DNA from: Chitinophagaceae bacterium
GTDB lineage: Bacteria > Bacteroidota > Bacteroidia > Chitinophagales > Chitinophagaceae
DNA length: 64,000 bases
Direction of reading: 5' to 3'
Assembly (NCBI GenBank): GCA_947447265.1
Contig: CANFKC010000025.1
Span: forward strand, 1-64,000
Shown here: in pieces, positions 1,835 to 12,250 of the stretch
How the letters are laid out: every line of letters starts with the position of its first letter
Numbering within the stretch: position 1 is the first letter of the stretch
Program-made: the position numbers and the translations under genes
Notes under the pieces: model-generated
Told to the model about the DNA's origin: nothing
The model's database searches: none
Seen by the model: only the letters and a program-made list of their open reading frames with translations

Positions 1835-2680
1835 TCAAAGCTGGTTATTGTTAGTAATATTATCTTGGATTACTTGTGAGCAAAGGCTATGGCTTAAAAC
1901 ACAGTTAAACACTTTTTCAGGATATTCTCGCCTCATCAAATCATCAGGTATTTGCCTCTTCTTATCGATTTGTTTGAAAAAATAGGCTATACCTTGGGAT
2001 TCGCATTCCAATTTCAATTTTCTGCCCCATTCCAAGTCAAAATAACGTTTATGATGACCAGATTCTCCGCCCTGGATAACCCAAGAGATCTGTTTGGACT
2101 GCAACCAAGGCATTAATGATATTTCAGACAATTGCGGCTCAACTGACAAGAATCTATTACCATTTACCTTGAGTAACTGCTCTATTAACGTTAGAGCCGT
2201 TTTCTGGTTTACGGGGGAGGTGCCAAACATTACATTTTCGGGTGGATTTGACTTCCAGCTTTCAGGAATATACCTATTTATATTGCTGGGGCGTTTGGTC
2301 AAAAGCAAAAACATAAGATTTGGATACATACCATCGGTTATGTTCTTGAAGAACCTATCCCTTAGTTGACCAGTAGTGAAATTTTGCAGGTTTCCTTTCC
2401 AATCCACAACAGGCATTGGATTTTCGAATATATCCATCATGGATCCCACAAACACACGATGTATTTCACCAGCCTCCCGAGCTTTCTTTTGAAACGAGTC
2501 TAACTTAGACCAAACACTGCCAACCAATGCCCTCGGTTTATCATTTCCCCAAACGTCTTTGCCAATTCTTTTTGACGCACTTAGCGCATAACAATTATCG
2601 CAACCTTCGTGTACCTTGGTGCAGCCCCACCATAAGTTAGCAGTATGGTGCGTCCATTCAATCTTACTATTTTCTGCCAT
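1835..2680 (-). CDS. DUF5131 (phage Gp37/Gp68) family three-Cys-motif protein
   Basis: The 281-aa product has the family's N-terminal signature: IEWTHHTANLWWGCT followed by a CX6CX2C cluster at Cys20, Cys27 and Cys30. This kind of spacing could bind a metal or an iron-sulphur cluster. The family is known from phages and mobile regions and commonly sits beside a TcmP partner protein, which is not present here. The gene follows the ORF at 2724-3320 by 43 bp on the same strand, so the two probably form one transcript. The biochemical role of the family is not established. Length and start look normal. Confidence 0.8.
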   Translation of the reverse strand: MAENSKIEWTHHTANLWWGCTKVHEGCDNCYALSASKRIGKDVWGNDKPRALVGSVWSKLDSFQKKAREAGEIHRVFVGSMMDIFENPMPVVDWKGNLQNFTTGQLRDRFFKNITDGMYPNLMFLLLTKRPSNINRYIPESWKSNPPENVMFGTSPVNQKTALTLIEQLLKVNGNRFLSVEPQLSEISLMPWLQSKQISWVIQGGESGHHKRYFDLEWGRKLKLECESQGIAYFFKQIDKKRQIPDDLMRREYPEKVFNCVLSHSLCSQVIQDNITNNNQL

Positions 2681-3561: not shown

Positions 3562-3930
3562 ATGGCAACTAATAAACATGCAACTATTCGCTATCATGCT
3601 TTGGATCGTTGTTTCAGTAATGGTGGTAAGAAGTATTTTATGGAAAATCTTATCGAGGCATGTGGCGATGCGATTTATGCTTTCACTGGCACATCGGAGG
3701 GAATTAGTAGACGGCAAATATTTGAGGACATAAAGTTCATGGAAAGCGAGCAGGGCTGGTTAGTGCCTCTCGAACGGTGTAAGGAAGACAAAAAGGTTTA
3801 TTACAGGTATTCGGACTCAAATTATTCAATTAAAAAGCAAGCAATAAATGAGTCTGAAGCCAATCAGCTAAAGGAAACGCTATTAATTCTAGCTTGCAAC
3901 CAGATATGGAACCCCATTGCCTGCCATTAA
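3562..3930 (+). pseudogene. WYL-domain transcriptional regulator, N-terminal fragment
   Basis: The frame begins MATNKHATIRYHALDRC and reads as the winged-helix start of a WYL-domain regulator of the kind found next to restriction and other defence genes (roughly residues 1-110, including RRQIFEDIKFMES and YYRYSDSNYSI). Such proteins normally have about 300 residues or more. Here the family-like sequence stops at LKETLLIL (codon ending 3889). The last 13 codons are the out-of-frame reading of hsdM sequence. The WYL ligand-binding domain is missing, so autoregulation, if it persists, would depend on the DNA-binding part alone. The break is a deletion junction. Confidence 0.75.
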
Positions 3931-4000
3931 CCAGCAGGTAAAGGAACTGGAAGAAAAAGTAAATGCTCACCTTGCTAAAATGGGATTTGTATGGAACTAA
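3893..4000 (+). pseudogene. hsdM: hsdM C-terminal remnant (type I DNA methyltransferase)
   Basis: Reading in the frame that ends with TAA at 3998-4000 gives LATRYGTPLPAINQ followed by a heptad-like segment and AHLAKMGFVWN. This matches the typical C-terminus of type I restriction HsdM subunits. Only 35 codons survive. There is a stop (TAG, 3890-3892) immediately before the segment, and the catalytic NPPY region is absent from the window. The stop codon overlaps the hsdS start by 10 bp, the translational coupling expected in an intact hsdM-hsdS operon. Loss of the rest of hsdM should inactivate methylation by this system. Confidence 0.7.
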
Positions 4001-5199
4001 GGAAAGGGTATAAGCAAACTGAAGTGGGGGTAATTCCAGAGAGTTGGGAAGTTAAATCGTTGGGGAATATTACAGATAGAATTTTAGGTGGCGGCACTCC
4101 AAGCAGGTCAAATACTACATATTGGGGTAATGAAATACCATGGGCAACGGTTAAAGATTTTGCGACATTTGACCCATACGCCACACAGGAATACATTACA
4201 TTGTTAGGTTTGAAAAAATCCTCATCAAATCTTATTCCCAAGGGTATATTAATCACCTCTACAAGAATGGCATTGGGGAAAGCAGTTATATACAATAATG
4301 ATGTTGCAATAAACCAAGACCTAAAGGCACTCTTTTTTAATAAAAATATTGATACTAAGTATCTATATTATTGGTTCCAAGCAAACAGTAAGAAAATTGA
4401 AGATTTAGGTAGTGGGAGTACGGTGATGGGTGTTTCGCTTGTTGACCTAAAGAAATTGTTTTTGGCTCTGCCAAATAAAAATTCCGAACAGACAGCCATA
4501 GCCAATGCCCTCAGTGATATGGATGCTCTTATCAGCAGCGTGGAACAACTGATTGAGAAGAAGAAAGCCATCAAGCAGGGAGCCATGCAGGAATTACTGA
4601 AACCTAAGGATGGGTGGGTGACTAAAACATTAAAACAGGTAGCCACCTATAGGCGTGGTAGTTTCCCACAACCCTATGGTCTTGACAAATGGTACGATGA
4701 TATTACAGGGATGCCATTTGTACAGGTATATGATGTTGATGATAACAAGAAACTGAAAAGCGAAACAAAGAGAAGAATAAGTAAAGATGCTCAAAAAATG
4801 AGCATTTATGCGCCTACTGGTACAATCATTCTTACCATACAGGGTTCTATAGGTCGTATTGCAATTACCCAATATGATGCTTATATTGATCGTACTTTAT
4901 TAATTTTTGAATCTTTCTTGGTTGAATTTGATAAGTATTTCTTCTTGTGGTCGGTTTACCGTTTGTTTGAAAAGGAAAAAGAAACTGCACCAGGCGGAAT
5001 AATTAAAACAATAACTAAAGAAGCTCTTTCGAGTTTTCCTATAAGTTACCCAGACATTGCCGAGCAAAGGAAAATTTCAGCTACTCTGTCTTTATTGGAT
5101 GATGAAATAGCGGTTTTGGAATTGAAATTCAAAAAGCTCACAAACCAAAAACAAGCAATGATGCAGGTATTGTTAACTGGTAAAATAAGGCTGGTATGA
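3991..5199 (+). CDS. hsdS: Type I restriction-modification specificity subunit HsdS
   Basis: The 402-aa product has the usual HsdS layout: first target-recognition domain (about residues 12-160, starting GVIPESWEVKSLGNITDRIL), a central conserved helix (about 165-205, EQTAIANALSDMDALI), a second recognition domain (about 210-360) and a C-terminal helix (EQRKISATLSLLDDEIAVLE). HsdS determines the bipartite DNA target of the M2S methyltransferase and R2M2S nuclease complexes. It overlaps the hsdM remnant by 10 bp and hsdR by 4 bp (ATGA). It is full length, but with hsdM deleted next door it has no local partner. Confidence 0.93.
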   Translation: MELRKGYKQTEVGVIPESWEVKSLGNITDRILGGGTPSRSNTTYWGNEIPWATVKDFATFDPYATQEYITLLGLKKSSSNLIPKGILITSTRMALGKAVIYNNDVAINQDLKALFFNKNIDTKYLYYWFQANSKKIEDLGSGSTVMGVSLVDLKKLFLALPNKNSEQTAIANALSDMDALISSVEQLIEKKKAIKQGAMQELLKPKDGWVTKTLKQVATYRRGSFPQPYGLDKWYDDITGMPFVQVYDVDDNKKLKSETKRRISKDAQKMSIYAPTGTIILTIQGSIGRIAITQYDAYIDRTLLIFESFLVEFDKYFFLWSVYRLFEKEKETAPGGIIKTITKEALSSFPISYPDIAEQRKISATLSLLDDEIAVLELKFKKLTNQKQAMMQVLLTGKIRLV

Positions 5200-8100
5200 G
5201 AAAGGAACGCATCACCCAGAACCGTGTAGCTAAGTTGTTAAATGAGCAGCTTGGTTACCGTTATATAGGAAGCCTTGAAGACTTGGACAATACCAATATC
5301 CGTGAAGAAGACCTGAAAGCCTATCTCAAAGGAACGGGAAAGCACTCTGATGCCATCATCTCAAAAGCACTGTTCAGCTTAAAAAAGGCAGCAGCAATAA
5401 GCCCAAATGATGACCTATACCCCGTAAACAAAGAGGTGTACTCCAAGCTGCGCTATGGTATAAAGGAAAAGGAATCTGCTGGTGAACCTGACCAAACAGT
5501 TAGGCTGATAGATTGGGAGCATCCAGAGCTGAACGACTTTGCCATTGCTGAGGAAGTTACCGTAAGAGGTGTAAACGAAAAGCGACCAGATATAGTACTA
5601 TACGTAAACGGTATAGCATTGGGTATACTGGAGTTAAAGAGAGCCAGCGTATTGGTAAACGAAGGGATAAGACAAAACCTGGATAACCAGCAGCATAGAT
5701 TCATAAAGCCGTTCTTTACCACCATACAGTTGGTACTGGCAGGGAATGATACCCAGGGCTTATACTACGGTACTACCAAGACAACTGAGAAATACTTCCT
5801 GAAATGGAAAGAAGAAAACCACAGCTATGACCCCGATCAGAACCTGCTGGATCAGCACTTGCTTCAATTCTGCACAAAAGCCAGAGTGCTTGAGTTGATC
5901 CATGACTTTGTTGTGTTCGATGCTGGTATAAAGAAGTTATGCCGACCCAACCAATACTTTGGGGTAAGGGCAGCACAGCAATATATTAACAGGAAGGAAG
6001 GAGGCATCATCTGGCATACACAGGGCAGCGGCAAGAGTTTAACTATGGTATGGCTGGCTAAATGGATACGAGAACACCAGACAGATGCCAGGTTACTGAT
6101 AATAACCGATAGAACAGAGCTGGACGAGCAAATAGAAAAGGTGTTCACTGGTGTTGATGAAAAGATATACCGTACCAAAAGCGGTCAGGATCTCATAAAT
6201 AAACTAAATGACACAGCACCGTGGTTGTTATGTACCCTTGTTCACAAATTCGGCAGAAATGAGGATGCTAATGTAGAAGAGTTCGTAAATGAACTTAAAA
6301 AGCCTAAGGACTTTAAACCCAAAGGGAATCTGTATGTTTTTATTGATGAGTGTCACCGCACCCATAATGGAACCCTGCATGATGCAATGACCGAGCTTAT
6401 ACCCGATGCTCTGTTTATAGGTTTTACAGGTACACCATTACTCAAAGCTGATAAGAAGAAGAGCATAGAGATATTTGGCAGGTATATACACACCTATAAG
6501 TTTGATGAAGCGGTTAAGGACGGTGTAGTATTGGATCTGCTCTATGAAGCCAGGGATGTTGATCAGCACGTGCAAGATCAGAGAGGCATAGATGATTGGT
6601 TTGATATTGTAACCAAGGGAATGAATGACCTACCAAAAGCGGAGTTAAAGCAAAAGTGGGGAACGATGCAGAAGATCCTCAGCACGAAAGATAGATTGCA
6701 AAAGGTTGCGTTTGATATCATTAAAGACTTTAAAATAAAGCCAAGGCTTAGAAATGGCAGGGGTAATGCTATTCTGGTAAGTAAAAGCATTTATGAGGCT
6801 TGTAGGTATTACGAGATATTTCAGGGCTTTAATTTCAAGAATTGCGCTATTATCACCTCATACGAACCAACAACAACAAGCATCAAAGGCGAAACTACGG
6901 GTGATGGTGATACCGAAAAAATAGAACAGTATGCCATTTACCATAGAATGCTGAATGGTAAGGACAGGGAAACATTTGAGAAGGATGCCAAAAAACAGTT
7001 CATTGATGAGCCAGCCAACATGCAGCTGCTGATTGTGGTAGATAAACTGCTTACTGGTTTTGATGCTCCTGCATGTACCTACCTATACATTGATAAGGAG
7101 ATGAGAGATCATGGTTTATTCCAGGCTATATGCAGGGTGAACCGTACAGAAAATGATGATAAGGAATTTGGTTACATCGTAGACTACAAAGACCTTTTTG
7201 ATAGCCTGAATGCTTCTATATCAGATTATACCTCCGATGCATTTGACGAGTTCGATAAAGAGGATGTAAAGGGCTTATTGGTTGACAGGTTGAAAAAAGC
7301 CAGGGAACGAATGACCGATGCTCTTGAAACATTACATGAGCTGTGCAGCCCTGTTGAGCCTCCAAAGCAAATTGAACAATATATTAAATACTTCTGCGGC
7401 AACACCGAGGATAAAGCTGCATTAAAGGATAATGAGGAACGCAGGTTAACCTTCTATAAGGCTGTTGTATCATTGATACGGGCTTTCAACAATATAGCAG
7501 CCGAAATGACCGAAGCTGGTTATACCCAGGCTGAGGCTGACAAAATCAAACACACCGTTGATGAATACACAGAACTAAGGAACTCCATAAAAATAGCCAG
7601 TGGCGATTATATTGACCTCAAAGCCTACGAACCAGAAATGCGCCAGCTTCTGGATATGTACCTAAGTGCAGATCCGAGCCGCACTATCTCTGATTTTGGT
7701 GATGCAACTTTGTTGCAGATCATTGTAGAACATGGTATTGAAGCAGCTACAGGTAAGCTACCAAACTCCATAAAGCGAAATAGAGGGGCAATGGCTGAAA
7801 CCCTGGAAGCAAACATGCGAAAGGTTATTACCCAGGAAATGCCCATCAATCCCGTTTACTATGAGAAAATGAGTGTACTTCTGGAAGAACTAATTCGTCA
7901 GAGAAAGCTCGGAGCAATAAGCTATGAGGAGTTCCTGAAGAAGATTGAAGAGTATGCCAGGGATATACAACCGAAGAAAGGTAACCACAATTACCCGCCA
8001 GAGATTGATACTAAAGCAAAAATGTCTTTGTACGATAATCTGAATAAGGACATTGCATTGGTGATAGCTCTGAATGATGAAATCATTGCTAAAAAGAAAG

Positions 8101-8225
8101 ATGATTGGATCGGTGATACTTTAAAGGAACGAATGATAATCAACATCCTTAAAAAACACATTGCCGACCAAGATAGAAGGGATATCGTTTTTGAGATCAT
8201 TAAAAATCAAAGGGAATACAGATAA
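5196..8225 (+). CDS. hsdR: Type I restriction endonuclease subunit HsdR
   Basis: The 1009-aa protein is full length for HsdR. It contains the PD-(D/E)xK nuclease site (D132 and E146-L-K148 in ILELKRA), a Walker A motif (HTQGSGKS, K280), the DEAD-like box DECH (384-387), GFTGTP (409-414) and further helicase motifs such as LLTGFDAP. HsdR translocates DNA with ATP and cuts unmethylated DNA, but only when docked on HsdM/HsdS. The start codon overlaps the hsdS stop (ATGA), and the stop is directly followed by the metallopeptidase ATG. No frameshift is seen. Without HsdM it is expected to be silent. Confidence 0.95.
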   Translation: MRKERITQNRVAKLLNEQLGYRYIGSLEDLDNTNIREEDLKAYLKGTGKHSDAIISKALFSLKKAAAISPNDDLYPVNKEVYSKLRYGIKEKESAGEPDQTVRLIDWEHPELNDFAIAEEVTVRGVNEKRPDIVLYVNGIALGILELKRASVLVNEGIRQNLDNQQHRFIKPFFTTIQLVLAGNDTQGLYYGTTKTTEKYFLKWKEENHSYDPDQNLLDQHLLQFCTKARVLELIHDFVVFDAGIKKLCRPNQYFGVRAAQQYINRKEGGIIWHTQGSGKSLTMVWLAKWIREHQTDARLLIITDRTELDEQIEKVFTGVDEKIYRTKSGQDLINKLNDTAPWLLCTLVHKFGRNEDANVEEFVNELKKPKDFKPKGNLYVFIDECHRTHNGTLHDAMTELIPDALFIGFTGTPLLKADKKKSIEIFGRYIHTYKFDEAVKDGVVLDLLYEARDVDQHVQDQRGIDDWFDIVTKGMNDLPKAELKQKWGTMQKILSTKDRLQKVAFDIIKDFKIKPRLRNGRGNAILVSKSIYEACRYYEIFQGFNFKNCAIITSYEPTTTSIKGETTGDGDTEKIEQYAIYHRMLNGKDRETFEKDAKKQFIDEPANMQLLIVVDKLLTGFDAPACTYLYIDKEMRDHGLFQAICRVNRTENDDKEFGYIVDYKDLFDSLNASISDYTSDAFDEFDKEDVKGLLVDRLKKARERMTDALETLHELCSPVEPPKQIEQYIKYFCGNTEDKAALKDNEERRLTFYKAVVSLIRAFNNIAAEMTEAGYTQAEADKIKHTVDEYTELRNSIKIASGDYIDLKAYEPEMRQLLDMYLSADPSRTISDFGDATLLQIIVEHGIEAATGKLPNSIKRNRGAMAETLEANMRKVITQEMPINPVYYEKMSVLLEELIRQRKLGAISYEEFLKKIEEYARDIQPKKGNHNYPPEIDTKAKMSLYDNLNKDIALVIALNDEIIAKKKDDWIGDTLKERMIINILKKHIADQDRRDIVFEIIKNQREYR

Positions 8226-8933
8226 ATGAAGATAGCGGGCATTGAGGTAGAAGTTATTCGTAAGGACATCAAGAATCTACATCTGGCTGTTTATCCACCA
8301 GATGGCAGGGTAAGGCTTGCTGCACCAGCTGATGTCAATATGCAAACCCTGGAGCTTTATACCACATCAAAGATCGGTTGGATCAAACGCCAGCAAAGAA
8401 TGTTCCTCAACCAGGATAGGCAACCCCCAAGACAGTATGTGGACAGGGAAAGCCATTATTACCTGGGTAAAAGGTATCTGCTTAGGGTTCATGAAACTGA
8501 TAATATTAATCGATACCCCAGGATAATACTCAGGACGAAGACCTACATTGATATATATGTAAAGCCTGGCTATACCATTGAACAAAAATCGGAGCTGTTT
8601 AAAGAATGGTATCGAGCCAGGTTCAAAGAACTGCTGCCTGAGCTGACCAATAAGTGGGAAAGGATTGTGGGAGTGGCTCCCAGTACCTACATGATCAAAA
8701 CCATGAAAACCAAGTGGGGGTCGTGCAAAATAGAAACTGCCAACATCAATCTAAATCTGGAGCTGATTAAAAAACCAGTTGATTGCATTGAGTACGTCTT
8801 GGCTCATGAGCTTACCCATCTATTGGAACGCAATCACAACGATGTATTTCAGGCTTATATGGATCGGCATATACCCAAGTGGAAATCTATAAGAGATGAA
8901 TTAAACAGATTGCCTGTGGGTGAGATTGATTAA
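8226..8933 (+). CDS. YgjP-like (DUF45) zinc metallopeptidase
   Basis: The 235-aa protein has the DUF45/YgjP pattern: a beta-rich N-terminal half, KWGSC at 163-167, then HELTHLLERNH with the zinc ligands H194, E195, H198 and probably H204. The family resembles SprT and WLM metallopeptidases. It is often found as an extra gene after hsdR in type I clusters, as here, where the start follows the hsdR stop without a gap. Its role in those clusters is not settled; protein turnover of the restriction complex has been considered. All catalytic residues are present, so it is probably active. Confidence 0.9.
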   Translation: MKIAGIEVEVIRKDIKNLHLAVYPPDGRVRLAAPADVNMQTLELYTTSKIGWIKRQQRMFLNQDRQPPRQYVDRESHYYLGKRYLLRVHETDNINRYPRIILRTKTYIDIYVKPGYTIEQKSELFKEWYRARFKELLPELTNKWERIVGVAPSTYMIKTMKTKWGSCKIETANINLNLELIKKPVDCIEYVLAHELTHLLERNHNDVFQAYMDRHIPKWKSIRDELNRLPVGEID

Positions 8934-11305: not shown

Positions 11306-11332
11306 TGTGGGGTAGCAATAAAAAAGAAACAA

Positions 11333-11527
11333 ATGAATCTTAAAGAAAATATTGAAAGTCGGGAAAAAGCAGTTCGATTACATATAGAATATTTAAGGTC
11401 GGTACTCAATGAAGGGAGTAAGATAAGTAAACAGAACCCAAACGATTGGAAGTACTTAATGATGCTTACAACTTGCGATAAAGCACTTACTACACTCAAC
11501 CAAGAGTTGGATGAAATAAAGAAATAA
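11333..11527 (+). CDS. Small hypothetical coiled-coil-like protein, 64 aa
   Basis: I place the start at ATG 11333, since the frame further upstream has only a TTG that overlaps the promoter element. The product (MNLKENIESREKAVRLHI...) is helical, with charged heptad-like spacing and one Cys, and ends LNQELDEIKK. It diverges from the serine recombinase and is the last gene before the comM junction. No family is recognised. A clear promoter and a good ATG favour a real gene. It could serve as a recombination accessory factor, but this is only suggested by location. Confidence 0.5.
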   Translation: MNLKENIESREKAVRLHIEYLRSVLNEGSKISKQNPNDWKYLMMLTTCDKALTTLNQELDEIKK

Positions 11528-11590
11528 ATATATAGTATTATTGTATATGTTTTACAGAATAATTATTGCAGTAGTATTATCGATACCTAT

Positions 11591-12250
11591 TTACATTGCA
11601 TTATGGCCGCCTGCGGCTGCAATTTCCAGCGCGCGCTTTACATTCTCCTGGCCCTTAACATCGTTAAAGTCGATATCGAATACATTTTGCGCGTCAAAAA
11701 ACTCTTCGCGGGTATTTACTTTTACCGGCTTTAGCTCGCCGCGGCCGCTGAAAAAATCTATGACCTCTTTTATATTTTCTACCCCGTACACGTCAAGGTT
11801 ATTCACCAATGCGGCTTCGCGGGCGTTTTCTTTTGGTACTATAAGGCCTTTGTACTTTTCTGCGCGGGTTTGTATGGCAATGGGTAACGCACCTTTTATT
11901 GCCTTTACGCCACCATCAAGCGAAAGCTCGCCCATTATTACATATTCATGTAAAGGGGCGTTAGGTAGCTGTCCAGTCGCAGCAAGCATGCCAATAGCAA
12001 TCGGAAGATCGTATGCCGCACCTGCTTTTTTAATATCGGCCGGCGCCATATTGATAACTATCCTGCCTCTTGGCCGCTCAAATTCGTTATTGAGGATGGC
12101 AGAAAGGACGCGGTCGGTACTCTCCTTTACGGCATTGTCAGGCAGGCCAACAATAAACACGCCTATCGCGCCACCCGGGGTATCTACTTCAATAGTTATG
12201 GTAATAGCGTCAACACCATAAACTGCACTGCCGAAAACTTTTACTAACAT
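11591..12250 (-). pseudogene. comM: comM/yifB Mg-chelatase-like AAA ATPase, N-terminal fragment
   Basis: The frame gives the complete N-terminal LonC-like domain of the YifB/ComM family (MLVKVFGSAVYGVDA, then VGLPDNAVKES, and GELSLDGGVKAIKGALPIA) and enters the AAA domain at NVKRALEIAAAGGHNAM, where a stop follows. Normal proteins have about 510 residues and continue here directly into the Walker A loop. Only 219 residues remain. ComM is a helicase that helps integrate transformed DNA. The cut coincides with the edge of the accessory region, so the gene was interrupted by insertion. Loss of ATPase and helicase parts makes it inactive. Confidence 0.9.

Follow-up and report, generated by a model that had tools for sequence, protein, structure and literature searches.

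Mobile DNA is known to enter comM by more than one route. According to Durrant et al. (2022), 12.4% of the large serine recombinases (LSRs) predicted to be site-specific target the magnesium chelatase/ATP-dependent protease gene, and LSR targets are enriched in competence genes (PMC10083194). The targeting of comM near Walker B by Tn7-like and Tsy elements has also been published and tested (PMC10293859). The comM gene of the genome analyzed here (G000) shares features with each of these systems. As in the LSR elements of Durrant et al., a small element within a comM-family gene has an LSR at its edge; the present data differ in that the comM sites of Bacteroidota are resolved to three codons, with the LSRs largely sorted by site, and in that G000 appears to have two comM sites occupied. 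The initial annotation of the locus had drawn a parallel with the comM resistance islands of Acinetobacter. With AbaR/Tn6022 (Tn7-like, with the target selector TnsF) it does share the target gene, the splitting by an accessory island, and the probable loss of ComM. As a mechanism, however, the parallel is not supported, since AbaR/Tn6022 is Tn7-like and uses a transposase, whereas here the DNA adjoining the comM 3' half encodes an LSR, and neither tns genes, among the island ORFs scanned, nor a target duplication were found. Tsy elements, which combine a tyrosine recombinase with TnsF (PMC10293859), are likewise site-specific elements inside comM, located near Walker B, but tyrosine recombinases were not found in the assembled part of the present island. 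As a hotspot for LSRs, comM is already known, and G000 is a well-resolved new example. Probably new are the resolution into three codons, between which the LSRs are mostly sorted, and the probable double occupancy; we did not find either the three-codon resolution or the double occupancy stated in the main texts of the papers cited, supplements aside.

The interrupted comM and its island

The window (the whole stretch of 64,000 nucleotides analyzed, C25:1-64000) is part of a draft assembly of 98 contigs that is 98.8% complete, and its left edge is the start of the contig. Its features are compiled in Table 1. The comM 5' part consists of codons 1 to 218 and the AT of codon 219, that is, the N-terminal ChlI/Lon-like domain without Walker A. 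The corresponding open reading frame (11591-12250, minus strand) matches Pfam ChlI (E 4e-43) and the first 25 positions of Mg_chelatase, and it ends in GGHNAM-stop; where it stops, intact comM of the same genus reads on as GGHNAILIGPPGAGKT. The break before the Walker A loop, reported in the initial annotation, was confirmed by the ORF, by Pfam, and by alignment to the intact same-genus copies. The comparison with close relatives that had been proposed there found comM whole in six genomes of the genus (G001, G003, G005, G006, G009, and G010). Agreement with comM extends as far as the AT (11595-11596) of the Ile codon, whereas the G and TAA that come next are island sequence; the M codon of GGHNAM is a junction artifact.

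TABLE 1 Features of the comM interruption in the window
Feature	Position	Strand	Evidence
Assembled window-side island, runs off contig start	1..11594	.	Contig start = window position 1; GC
DUF5131 protein	1835..2680	-	Pfam E 1e-46 and PADLOC candidate-defense models
122-aa ORF directly before hsdS, no family found	3562..3930	+	ORF, Pfam; by eye
HsdS, type I restriction specificity subunit	3991..5199	+	Pfam and PADLOC
HsdR, type I restriction subunit	5196..8225	+	Pfam and PADLOC, 1366 bits
YgjP-like metallopeptidase	8226..8933	+	Pfam E 6e-58
Small resolvase-type serine recombinase of 209 aa	10533..11162	-	Pfam Resolvase E 3e-27
Small ORF of 65 aa without a family match	11330..11527	+	ORF, Pfam, PADLOC
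comM/island junction, GCA-AT-G	11593..11598	-	Comparison with intact copies and site-C insertions
comM/yifB 5' part	11595..12250	-	ORF and Pfam, versus intact copies of six same-genus genomes

The view that an accessory island interrupts comM is supported by the GC content, which is 0.379 (38%) in the island compared to 0.429 (43%) in the backbone. Neither conjugation genes nor phage structural genes were recognized in the assembled window part of the island. No HsdM was recognized beside hsdS and hsdR (window region 3562-5199) and, by eye, the 122-aa ORF is possibly a cut regulator; the restriction locus may therefore be broken. DNA methyltransferases or other candidate restriction genes are also carried by other comM elements, as judged partly by eye. 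The small serine recombinase, to which the insertion had initially been attributed, is 62% identical to those inside the comM elements of G160 and G316. It was rejected as the likeliest mover, and a role as the integrase is not supported, because it is devoid of the LSR Recombinase domain and homologues of it occur in comM elements equipped with an LSR of their own.

The comM 3' half was found on a different contig (C63:21280-22030, minus strand), where it starts with codon 281, the GAC of HHTIS|D. It had been anticipated beyond the left edge; it is present in the assembly but not past that edge on the same contig, since the window begins at base 1 of C25. Between the two halves, 61 codons (~184 bp) that include the Walker A loop are missing, and they have no significant match anywhere in the G000 assembly. 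In addition, no contig-end overlaps join C25 to C63. An absent 3' half or an intact second comM would, according to the initial annotation, have spoken against an interruption; the half is on C63, and G000 has no spare copy, the remaining ChlI-domain matches being frames of 465 and 810 aa that are RadA- and Lon-sized. The short duplicated target that had been suggested is absent from the break, where 184 bp of comM are missing instead of duplicated.

The LSR on C63 (P0001, 543 aa) possesses Resolvase, Recombinase, and Zn-ribbon domains and begins ~40 bp from the comM 3' half. C63 ends inside a small recombinase gene of its own, which shares 72% protein identity over 82 aa and 76% DNA identity with that of the window. 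Outside comM, G000 has five further LSR Recombinase domain matches (on C17, C24, C27, C47, and C57).

Recurrent integration sites in comM across the phylum

When 299 genomes of the order were searched, five homologues of P0001 were found in four other genomes. Those of G160 and G220 and one of the two in G164 abut a comM half, whereas for the homologue of G133 and the second LSR of G164 there was no comM within 1.5 kb. A further homologue, from the Mucilaginibacter MAG G316, is also in comM. The comM insertions of G160, G164, G220, and G316 share one codon with the C63 junction (site A). The complete elements of G160, G220, and G316 have sizes of 7.3, 10.5, and 12.2 kb, respectively, with a GA(T/C) core and inverted arms around it. 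In G160, the small recombinase is at the 5' end and the LSR at the 3' end; in G164, the LSR is on the 5' side of the element. The search used in IMG/VR returned no P0001 relatives, and those in phages are only distant (best, ~28% identity). Besides its interrupted comM, G316 has a second, intact one (C95:81735-82100), which is a paralogue or contamination. Two genomes of the window's genus, G007 (L041/L063) and G008 (L042/L062), have contigs that end exactly at the comM site-A core, with halves that overlap by 2 to 4 bp; no comM element is assembled there and an LSR is absent from the G008 assembly, so that these contig ends are suggestive only.

We then surveyed 392 genomes of the phylum, of which 376 had comM; sixteen with two matches were re-searched. 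Five genomes whose comM looked split (G105, G318, G571, G578, and G644) were left out of the count, since their frames overlapped or adjoined each other, a contig edge was involved, or a partial copy was present in addition. An interrupted comM was found in at least about 11 of the 375 genomes other than G000. The breaks occurred mostly at three spots, namely, (i) site A, HHTIS|D (G409, G528, and G650); (ii) site B, SMNP|CPCG (G112, G359, G477, and G670, as well as G004 of the window's genus); and (iii) site C, GGHNx|AT (G388, G531, and G618), with inserts of 9.5 to 11.3 kb. At every comM split at one of these sites, an LSR adjoins the junction (identified by Pfam for those tested and by homology for the others). 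The site-A and site-C elements examined in full contained an LSR together with a small resolvase-type recombinase. This pairing was seen in G160, G220, G316, G528, G388, G531, and G618 and on C63 of G000, and a second small recombinase of G000 is found in the window.

In a tree of 23 LSRs, the site-B and site-C enzymes each formed one clade with a support of 100/100. Those of site A fell mostly into one clade, with two non-comM members inside it and G409 outside; the G000 LSR grouped with the site-A LSRs of G316 and G164. Since sites B and C correspond to single clades and site A mostly to one, specificity follows LSR lineage, although site-A specificity has changed more than once.

A number of individual observations were also made. 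(i) The site-B island of G004 (C11, ~903000-923090; L040, L061) is 20 kb long and contains a UvrD-like helicase, two LSRs that differ from each other, and, as judged by eye, two VirD4-like ATPase ORFs. (ii) In G568, a Tn7-like transposon of ~45 kb (C1:36850-82300; L136, L137) is inserted in comM a few codons past site A; it has TnsA, a TnsB-like protein, and TniQ, a 5-bp duplication (TGGAG), and TGT...ACA ends. (iii) Downstream of the intact comM of G009 (C36; L044, 17648-19285) there are repeated fragments of the 3' end, 83 to 90% identical, that by eye alternate with small toxin-antitoxin-like ORFs.

Two integrations or one

The codon of the window junction coincides with that of the site-C core in the insertions of G388, G531, and G618, and its AT matches their position to the base; by our estimate, a break placed at random would have a chance of ~3 in 513 of lying no more than one codon from the site-C core. 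Because the window junction is on the site-C AT and the C63 junction is on site A, comM of G000 was probably struck by two separate site-specific integrations. Island 1, which would form the window side, would have entered at site C, where the Ile codon that follows GGHN supplies the AT and Walker A is about to begin. Island 2, moved by the C63 LSR, would have entered at site A, whose GA core belongs to the Asp codon of HHTIS|D. In either event the LSR would act on its own attP and a short attB in comM, and the resulting order would be comM 5' part, island 1, the 184-bp Walker A piece, island 2, and comM 3' part. The stretch from C25:1 to C63:24248, including the Walker A piece and the predicted site-C LSR, would then be unassembled, unbinned, or deleted. 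The distinct small recombinase genes in the window and at the C63 end lend support to two events. A site-C-type LSR was not detected in the G000 assembly, using a query that had no positive control and with the other end of the island unassembled; because this LSR was not found and the Walker A piece is missing, it is the two junctions that carry the case for two islands.

A single site-A island, inserted by the C63 LSR and later fixed in place by a deletion that took the comM-5' attachment site and the 184 bp, is a serious but unlikely alternative. A plain deletion ceased to be the favored explanation once the survey revealed site C to be recurrent in its own right. Several data agree with it: the C63 LSR is at site A, G160 has the same layout, and the assembly yielded no site-C LSR. 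The partner attachment site of site A is not in the G000 assembly, the assembled comM 5' part stopping 184 bp before site A, as either a second event in between or a deletion would leave it. The type of small recombinase present in the window is otherwise known in this analysis only from site-A elements, which counts against two islands. Furthermore, the sequence just inside the window junction weakly resembles the site-A element of G160 in its left arm (in one of five comparisons, with 2.3% of shuffles as good); such a likeness would be expected if a site-A island had suffered a deletion at one end, and it also counts against two islands. However, the deletion would have to end, by chance, at the exact AT used by three independent site-C elements, and there is a small recombinase gene on either side of the gap, the two being different, whereas one each was seen in the complete site-A elements examined.

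That the split is an artifact of assembly or binning of an intact comM is very improbable; the assembly is a draft and the comM halves are on different contigs, but both contigs run unbroken from comM into foreign DNA, and the breaks are at two codons where other genomes carry complete elements, among them the single-contig assembly G220. Insertion of a Tn7-like element of the AbaR/Tn6022 kind or of a Tsy-type element, as in Acinetobacter, is likewise very improbable, because, although comM is a target of such elements (PMC10293859) and a Tn7-like one of the same phylum is present in comM of G568, no tnsA/B/C, tniQ, tnsF, or tyrosine recombinase was found with Pfam and PADLOC among the ORFs scanned in the assembled part of the island, there is no target duplication, and an LSR is at the 3' junction.

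Two integrations thus remain the preferred explanation. We put forward more tentatively the wider reading that two unrelated islands occupy two LSR sites at once and that the comM islands of the phylum share the paired layout of LSR and small recombinase, in which the small partner may have a conserved job.

Probable consequences for ComM and its islands

ComM is described as the branch-migration helicase of transformation in Gram-negative bacteria (PMC11612176; Nero et al. 2018, cited in PMC8383284). For Riemerella, another member of the Bacteroidota, deletion of comM has been stated to abolish transformation, a remark based partly on unpublished data (PMC8383284). In Acinetobacter, island-inactivated comM goes together with low transformation, and it has been argued that this possibly protects islands from removal (PMC11472951). 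The ComM protein of G000 is almost certainly nonfunctional, because the ATP-binding loop has been parted from the rest; a protein severed from its Walker A loop would be expected to lack ATPase activity. By analogy with Riemerella, a reduced transformation in the G000 organism is plausible.

The data provide a phylum-wide view of a known hotspot, in which a few fixed codons around the ATPase motifs serve as entry points into comM for LSRs and, in one genome, for a Tn7-like transposon. The comM att sites are candidates for new LSR/attB pairs. Since ComM aids the recombination of foreign DNA during transformation and islands can be removed by this process, the pattern makes it possible to test whether the silencing of comM is of advantage to islands.
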